A stretch of 13,817 bases of DNA. It comes from a candidate division TA06 bacterium SM23_40 (GTDB lineage: Bacteria; LJUI01; SM1-40). The number at the start of each line of letters is the position of its first letter. Position 1 is the stretch's first letter. Positions 10,603 to 12,923 of this stretch are shown here, in pieces. Made by a program: the position numbers and the translations under genes. The notes under the pieces are model-generated. The model had not been told where the DNA came from and searched no databases. It saw only the letters and a program-made list of their open reading frames with translations. The stretch lies in assembly GCA_001303705.1 (NCBI GenBank), contig LJUI01000096.1, positions 1-13,817 of the forward strand, written 5' to 3'.

Positions 10603-12072
10603 TCACAACTCCTCGGCCTCCAGAACCTCTTCTCCGATGAGCACCTCCCGCGCCTTGCTTCCCTCGTACGGGCCTACAACGCCGGCCGCCTCCAGCTGAT
10701 CCATGAGCCGCCCTGCTCTCGCGTACCCCACCTTAAGACGGCGCTGCAGGAACGAGACCGATCCCAGCTGATGATGGATCACGAGCCGCCTGGCCTCCCC
10801 GAACAACTCATCGGGCTGATCCAGCTCAAGAGATTCCTCTTCTTCCGACTTCGAGACGATCTCCTCTTCCATCGCGCTCACAACGGGAAGAGTCCTCAGG
10901 AACCTGACGATCGACTGAGTCTCTTCGCTCGAGACGAAGGCTCCGTGTATGCGCACCGGCTCGGGCGACCCCGGGGCAAGGAAAAGCATGTCTCCCTGGC
11001 CGAGGAGCTTCTCGGCCCCGTTCATGTCCAGAATGGTACGCGAGTCTGTCTTCGACGCAACCTGGAACGCAATCCGAGAGGGGAAGTTCGCCTTGATCAC
11101 ACCAGTCAGGACGTCGACCGAAGGACGCTGCGTGGCAAGGAGAAGATGGATCCCGACAGCTCGGGACATGTGGGCGAGTCGGCCGAGATGTTTCTCGATC
11201 TCTGTCGGCATCGTCAGCATGAGATCGGAAAGCTCATCGATGACGATGACGATGTACGGCATCGGCCTCTCATCCGGCTCGAGGTTCGCGTTGTGGCTCT
11301 GGATGTCCCTCACGCCATCGGCCGCGAGATGTCGATAGCGTCTCTCCATCCAGTTGACGACAGTCGCGAGGGCCTTCGCCCCCTCACTCGCCTCGGTCAC
11401 TACAGGCATTACCAGGTGGGGTATGCCGTCGTACAGAGTAAGCTCGAGCCGCTTCGGATCGATGAGGAGAAACCTGACTTCGAACGGTGTAGCGCGAAAA
11501 AGTATGCTTGTCACGATCACGTTTATGCAGACACTCTTCCCGGATCCGGTCGCCCCGGCGACCAGAAGATGCGGCATGCGGGAGAGATCGGCGACATAGG
11601 GAGTTCCGGCGATATCGAGTCCCAGCGGGACGGCGAGCTTCGACTCGTTCTGCAGATACGCCTCTGCCGCGAGGACTTCTTTGAGATAGACTGGACTGCG
11701 CCGGCGATTGGGAATCTCGATCCCCACAACGGCCTTTCCCGGAACGGGGGCGACGACACGGATTCGCGGTGCACGCATCGCCAGGGCGAGGTCGTCGGCG
11801 AGGTTCGCGACACGGTTCACCTTCACCCCTGCCGCCGGTTCGAACTCATATCGGGTGATGACCGGGCCGGCCGCTACGTGAACCACGCTGCCATGAACGC
11901 CGAAGTCGGCGAGTTTACCCTCGACGGCATCAGCATTCTTCTCCAGCTCTTCTCTGGTCTGCCTCGTGTCGACCTTGAGCGGATCCTTGAGGAAAGAGAG
12001 GAATTCGCTCTGGTACTTGCTGTCCGTGCCGTAAGCCACAGGAGCAGCAACTTCCGGCTCGTGCTCGACCAC
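10603..12072 (-). CDS. ftsK: DNA translocase FtsK, C-terminal motor fragment
   Basis: This frame carries the whole cytoplasmic motor. The alpha part includes VVHVAAGPVITRYEFEPAAG; the RecA-like ATPase has Walker A GATGSGKSV (about 173-181 from the GTG) and Walker B IVIVIDELSDLM, followed by ATQRPSVDVLTGVIKANFP; the C-terminal gamma winged helix (about the last 65 residues, GSVSFLQRRLKVGYARAG) reads KOPS sites. FtsK pumps DNA at the septum to resolve chromosome dimers with XerCD. The frame is separated from its membrane domain by a 32-bp tandem duplication, so no ordinary start exists. I give the GTG at 12070-12072, which follows the upstream TAG by two bases and could allow reinitiation. Minus-strand frames reaching 12450 are out-of-frame run-on. 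One duplicated copy removed gives a single 762-aa FtsK. Confidence 0.8.
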   Translation of the reverse strand: MVEHEPEVAAPVAYGTDSKYQSEFLSFLKDPLKVDTRQTREELEKNADAVEGKLADFGVHGSVVHVAAGPVITRYEFEPAAGVKVNRVANLADDLALAMRAPRIRVVAPVPGKAVVGIEIPNRRRSPVYLKEVLAAEAYLQNESKLAVPLGLDIAGTPYVADLSRMPHLLVAGATGSGKSVCINVIVTSILFRATPFEVRFLLIDPKRLELTLYDGIPHLVMPVVTEASEGAKALATVVNWMERRYRHLAADGVRDIQSHNANLEPDERPMPYIVIVIDELSDLMLTMPTEIEKHLGRLAHMSRAVGIHLLLATQRPSVDVLTGVIKANFPSRIAFQVASKTDSRTILDMNGAEKLLGQGDMLFLAPGSPEPVRIHGAFVSSEETQSIVRFLRTLPVVSAMEEEIVSKSEEEESLELDQPDELFGEARRLVIHHQLGSVSFLQRRLKVGYARAGRLMDQLEAAGVVGPYEGSKAREVLIGEEVLEAEEL

Positions 12073-12124
12073 CTCTACTGAGGCGGCAGAGCGTGCTCGA
12101 CCACCTCTACTGAGGCGGCAGGGC
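12061..12124. repeat. 32-bp imperfect tandem duplication inside ftsK
   Basis: Copy 1 is 12061-12092 and copy 2 is 12093-12124. They differ at one base (A at 12090, G at 12122); the exact shared core is 30 bp (12060-12089 and 12092-12121). Because 32 is not a multiple of three, the second copy shifts the frame. The peptide AASVEVVEH is encoded at the end of the N-terminal frame and again at the start of the C-terminal frame. Confidence 0.95.
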
Positions 12125-12923
12125 GATCGGCTACCGGAGGCGCGGCGATCGAGCGAGCCTGTGATCGCGGCGGCTCGGGAGCGCTCTTCTTCGCCCGGGA
12201 TGGAATACGCTCTCTCTCCTTCAACCTCCGCCGCCGATGGCGCACCGGCCGCAGCGAGATCTTCTCTCCAAATAGATGGCCCATGGAGACCGCTCGCGAT
12301 GCGAGACCCCCTCCGACGCCCCTCATCCTCACTTCCAATATGACGAGAATCGCCATGAGCACGAGCCCGCCAAAGAGGACGTGTGCTCCGATCCGGCCGA
12401 GATATCGAATCGCCAGATCGGCGACATACCCTCCCACAAGCCCACCCCATAGTAGTTTCGTCTCAACGGCCAACCCCGTAGGGAGCGATACAGAGGTGCA
12501 GAACCAGAGCGCAAGGAGCACCAGCCAGAACGTCCCCACCATGGCCACCTCACTGCCTCGGTTGCCGACCAGGCTCACCGCCCACAGCAAGAAGACCAGT
12601 GGAAAGAGGTACCCCCCCCTACCGAGTAAGAGGGCGATCCAGTGGGCCATGTATGCGCCAACCACCCCGGCCACATTAGAGACCGAGCCCGGCGCATCTC
12701 CCAGCTGACCATAGTCCGCGGGGGAATAGGAGGCGATGCTCAGAAGGATAAGTGTGCCGAGAAGGAGAAGTGACATCCCCAGCAGCACCTGTCGCCGACG
12801 CTCACTGAGACGCGATACAACCCTGCCCAGTACGACGCCGAAGAAGACGAGCCCCGCCACGAGGAGAGTGATGGCAACTATTTTGACGATCATGAGGAGA
12901 AGCCAACGCAAGGTCTCTGGCAC
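12075..12923 (-). CDS. ftsK: DNA translocase FtsK, N-terminal membrane fragment
   Basis: 282 residues holding the septal membrane anchor. Hydrophobic segments lie near 8-33, 46-66, 85-100, 105-120, 128-147 and 180-197, followed by a basic, proline-rich linker (RHRRRRLKERERIPSRAKKS, 228-247). FtsK_4TM domains usually have four segments; an extra N-terminal one appears present. The frame ends at a TAG (12075-12077) created by the 32-bp duplication, right after AASVEVVEH; without it the frame would continue into EPEVAAPV and the motor. The start is GTG at 12921-12923 with GGGAGG about eight bases upstream. comB lies upstream, ending 78 bp before. If translated as is, this product would be an anchor without an ATPase. 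Confidence 0.8.
   Translation of the reverse strand: MPETLRWLLLMIVKIVAITLLVAGLVFFGVVLGRVVSRLSERRRQVLLGMSLLLLGTLILLSIASYSPADYGQLGDAPGSVSNVAGVVGAYMAHWIALLLGRGGYLFPLVFLLWAVSLVGNRGSEVAMVGTFWLVLLALWFCTSVSLPTGLAVETKLLWGGLVGGYVADLAIRYLGRIGAHVLFGGLVLMAILVILEVRMRGVGGGLASRAVSMGHLFGEKISLRPVRHRRRRLKERERIPSRAKKSAPEPPRSQARSIAAPPVADRPAASVEVVEHALPPQ

Follow-up and report, generated by a model that had tools for sequence, protein, structure and literature searches.

The window analysed here, a complete contig of 13,817 bases (contig C48), carries on its minus strand an ftsK gene whose linker contains a 32-bp tandem duplication that shifts the reading frame. The two copies of the unit lie at 12060-12091 and 12092-12123 and agree at 31 of 32 positions; a preliminary description of this DNA had reported the same duplication with the same identity, its coordinates (12061-12124) being one base off. 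The exact part of the repeat is 30 bp long with a period of 32, the first copy in gene orientation occupying 12092-12121 and the second, which holds a new stop codon, 12060-12089. The copy junction, as read from the sequence, consists of the two bases CT (12090-12091), of which 12090 is the single mismatch, against 12122. An exact repeat of 30 bases is far beyond chance (exact near-tandem repeats reached 16 bases at most when 100 windows were simulated with the same dinucleotide make-up), and the 32-bp unit has no further occurrence in the genome with up to three mismatches allowed. The unit also contains a small, weak hairpin (CCGCCTC-AGTA-GAGGTGG, 12069-12086 and again 12101-12118; z of -1.8 for the unit), which 10 of 200 shuffles equalled.

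The duplication leaves two ftsK fragments, both on the minus strand. The 5′ fragment (12075-12923) encodes the membrane anchor and the first part of the linker, with a match to FtsK_4TM (PF13491, E 6.7e-20); it starts at GTG 12923, with GGAGG 8 nt upstream, and its stop, TAG 12077-12075, falls within the second repeat copy. The 3′ fragment (10603-12462) is the motor frame, open from 12462 and with no stop before 10605, and matches FtsK_alpha (PF17854, 6.3e-32), the RecA-like ATPase domain FtsK_SpoIIIE (PF01580, 4.2e-55) and FtsK_gamma (PF09397, 5.5e-26); its homology to relatives spans about 12057-10606. All domains of the FtsK/SpoIIIE translocases (4TM, linker, and alpha/beta/gamma motor) are thus present and in order, and what sets this gene apart from them is the interruption of the linker by a frame-breaking duplication. 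Anchor and motor lie in separate frames (0 and 2) and so do not form one polypeptide as written, which bears out the earlier reading of a gene split into anchor and motor. Equally reproducible was its observation that removing one copy gives a single frame of 2,289 nt (762 aa plus stop): deleting any 32 bases with a start from 12060 to 12090 yields this identical frame, with no other change needed, a point in favour of a recent duplication.

As the gene stands, little motor protein is to be expected, since Shine-Dalgarno sequences are absent ahead of the motor-frame starts at 12450, 12072, 12039 and 11886, and the overlap from 12462 to 12078 lacks an in-frame -1 slippery heptamer (X XXY YYZ), the element that would mark a programmed frameshift. 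For the motor to be translated, ribosomes would have to reinitiate at GTG 12072 (12070-12072, minus strand), the nearest candidate, or at a later start. This GTG lies only 2 bases past the anchor stop and both FtsK parts are intact, which would suit a stable, working split in which the anchor and a soluble motor are made as two proteins; indeed, SftA of Bacillus subtilis is a soluble FtsK-like translocase without a membrane domain (PMC5357621), so that a motor of this kind is workable. The motor half here differs from SftA in having no translation start of its own and in being a fragment of a normal ftsK, and the Shine-Dalgarno-led second start of a translationally coupled split gene is missing. 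In addition, copies that still agree at 30 of 30 bases are too young to have allowed much adaptation, and every relative that could be resolved has the fused gene. We regard such a working split as very improbable.

A further reading accepts the two-copy linker as genuine and translated in the motor frame from further upstream, the true error being a single base lost between 12462 and 12092. The motor frame has no stop as far back as 12462 and a slight advantage in codon usage from 12242 on, and frame switches placed at 12119-12209 give profile scores of 851-854 bits against 852 for the one-copy version, in a region where the linkers do not align. In this low-complexity linker codon usage is uninformative as to where the frame switches, and it shows no sharp change at the duplication, which counts against the recent-duplication reading. 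However, a comparable codon signal is found in 10.6% of similar low-complexity windows, an off-frame stretch of this length stays open 6% of the time, and the reading demands a duplication plus a second, compensating change that escaped the assembly, which puts it among the least probable explanations considered.

The source genome is a 2.88-Mb draft in 189 contigs, 89.8% complete, and its FtsK is single-copy, with no second one in the draft. FtsZ and Xer-type recombinases are present. The nearest relatives of the motor are proteins of candidate division KSB1, about 57% identical over 460+ residues. Among 109 related-motor loci, 101 encode, upstream of the motor and in frame with it, 190 or more residues that include predicted membrane segments; of the other eight, a contig end truncates seven, and the last (L010) is near such an end. 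This locus, on the minus strand of another genome from 138 onwards, shows a motor-only FtsK frame beside the contig end, followed by a lolA-like gene as in the window, and was set aside as no clear second motor-only case, its upstream part falling at the contig end. A short tandem repeat occurs in the linker of 2 of the 109 relatives, in frame both times, and none of the 109 (all from outside the phylum of this genome, the best about 57% identical) has an out-of-frame duplication there. Since the relatives are fused and the genome has no other FtsK, the ancestral ftsK of this lineage is, judging from these comparisons, a fused gene with one copy of the unit.

Clean tandem duplications were searched for in 1.55 Mb, about 54% of the genome. 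Only one long case inside a gene was found besides that in ftsK: a perfect 33-bp tandem duplication on contig C58 (L167, 3198-3264; exact run 34) in a gene for a secreted, Omp28-like protein with FlgD_ig and a Por-type sorting tail. Its junction creates a TAG that divides the product into parts of 431 and 243 residues, and with one copy the frame is again continuous. Both long duplications therefore break their gene and none is in frame. Among the shorter repeats (15-21 bp), those within long frames have periods that are multiples of three, the pattern that selection leaves; repeats with any other period are intergenic or sit at the margins of genes. A 14-bp duplication on contig C23 was considered as another split gene and discarded: it is a normal gene boundary at which the Shine-Dalgarno sequence is repeated. 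Elsewhere in the genome a dispersed repeat, GACGTTGGTAGGTTCNGAAGGTTA, occurs at 83 places (up to two mismatches); the copies frequently form pairs with a spacing of 31-74 bp and, where checked, lie between genes (e.g. L117 14997-15067, L260 10429-10497 and L237 5802-5859); the ftsK window contains none.

The ftsK and C58 lesions together look like unselected events, be they very recent mutations, minority variants promoted to the consensus or assembly faults, and unlike a dedicated ftsK switch. This bears on slippage-based phase variation, which the preliminary description had offered as one explanation and for which no positive evidence emerged. According to this explanation the population would alternate, under regulation or selection, between a fused FtsK with one copy and a split FtsK with two, and tandem direct repeats can indeed contract: on Escherichia coli plasmids, the loss of direct repeats of 35 and 82 bp does not require RecA, in line with replication slippage (PMC7063769), and in ftsK a contraction would bring back the single frame. 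A phase-variable locus typically shows a many-unit array conserved in relatives, whereas there are just two copies here, of a unit found nowhere else in the genome, and no such array in the linkers of the 109 relatives. Moreover, ftsK, a housekeeping gene present once in the genome, is not the usual kind of contingency gene, and the unrelated secreted-protein gene has been hit alike. Phase variation accordingly ranks below even the working split. The same low standing goes to the idea of a population with both alleles, in which some cells would run a detached FtsK motor and chromosome clearance would be uncoupled from division in a heritable, reversible manner.

A far stronger competitor is assembly error, which the preliminary description had listed as an option. 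Overlapping contig or read ends may have been abutted and not merged, in which case the mismatch would be a strain difference or an end error and the real gene would have one copy and be intact. Such ends do exist in this assembly: among 196 contig ends, eight pairs overlap unmerged over 64-197 bp, and three of the eight differ at 2-3 internal positions, mismatches that look like strain variation. The eight pairs (among them the L114 3′ end with the L130 5′ end and the L226 5′ end with the L229 5′ end) are possible sources of false gene copies, and a second dnaE-like gene is cut by one of them. Scaffolding is indicated by short N gaps (11-52 nt); the flanks of the first two share no overlap. 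Two contigs start inside short tandem arrays (L257 1-52 and L261 1-54), which suggests that the assembler stopped there. The position of the ftsK mismatch at the junction, the second gene broken by a perfect 33-bp duplication and the lack of any in-frame case in 1.55 Mb also fit an artefact. On the other side, no overlap of 14-63 bp was found among the 196 ends, so that a 30-bp overlap is out of range; the periods (32 and 33) and exact runs (30 and 34) differ, which excludes a fixed k-mer length; two such cases in 1.55 Mb are not systematic; and the window is free of N. Base-level quality looks good as well, given that rpoB, the main dnaE and gyrA are unbroken. Taken together, an artefact is a serious contender, at somewhat under an even chance.

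The single mismatch had been taken as an argument against a simple assembly stutter, an inference that fails. Because it lies at the junction, and because the assembly contains unmerged overlaps with mismatches of their own, it does not discriminate a real duplication from an artefact: the difference between 12090 and 12122 is explained as well by a faulty contig end, by strain variation within an unmerged overlap or by misincorporation at the junction as by a later mutation.

With roughly even odds, and with the artefact close behind it, the leading explanation is that the ftsK break is a recent, non-adaptive (neutral or harmful) duplication in the sampled population. A recent date is indicated by the match of the two copies over 30 bases and by a motor that shows no decay. 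Several observations weigh against it. Homology at the junction is small (0-2 bases), whereas the clean intergenic duplications of this genome mostly extend past one period; both long clean genic duplications break their gene, as an unselected artefact would; and contig ends overlap unmerged in eight pairs, while the best relatives are only about 57% identical. Gene-disrupting, revertible tandem duplications that are short or associated with microhomology have been described for ssp1 of Schizosaccharomyces pombe (reviewed in PMC13207564). Like these, the ftsK case has two exact copies of tens of bases and a broken frame that one copy restores; it differs in its scant junction homology and in showing no sign of one-copy molecules in the population. 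The likeness to duplications from unmerged overlaps in draft assemblies lies in the mismatch near the junction and in the overlapping contig ends, and the difference in the length of the overlaps, which is well above 30 bp here.

If the recent duplication is real, it would most likely have arisen when about 32 bases were copied a second time, in the course of replication or of the repair of a break, with no more than 2-3 bases of homology at the ends. The shifted frame would bring in the stop, and the anchor (FtsK-N plus half the linker) would be made, with the untethered motor at best scarce, through reinitiation at GTG 12072. The anchor would presumably still serve division, and the role of the motor in clearing chromosome ends and activating Xer recombination would be reduced or lost. 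The two-copy allele would probably either be lost or, at a low rate, slip back to one copy.

The preliminary description had called the split gene notable on the ground that FtsK is normally essential or near-essential. In E. coli this holds for the N-terminal domain, which is essential for growth and division, but not for the linker and C-terminal motor, which are dispensable; free FtsK-C, detached from its anchor, still induces XerCD/dif recombination (PMC3140498). Because the anchor is left complete here, the lesion need not be lethal. The core of the preliminary interpretation, an ftsK split by a frame-breaking duplication, stands, and its statement on essentiality goes too far.

By itself the ftsK case matters little, as it concerns one broken or misassembled housekeeping gene. 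It does illustrate that a ‘split essential gene’ in an uncultured genome should be checked against the reads before any biological claim is made, and that a mismatch at a repeat junction is no proof of a real duplication. Should the reads confirm the two-copy form at high frequency, the lineage would exemplify, in nature, life with an FtsK motor that is untethered or missing.
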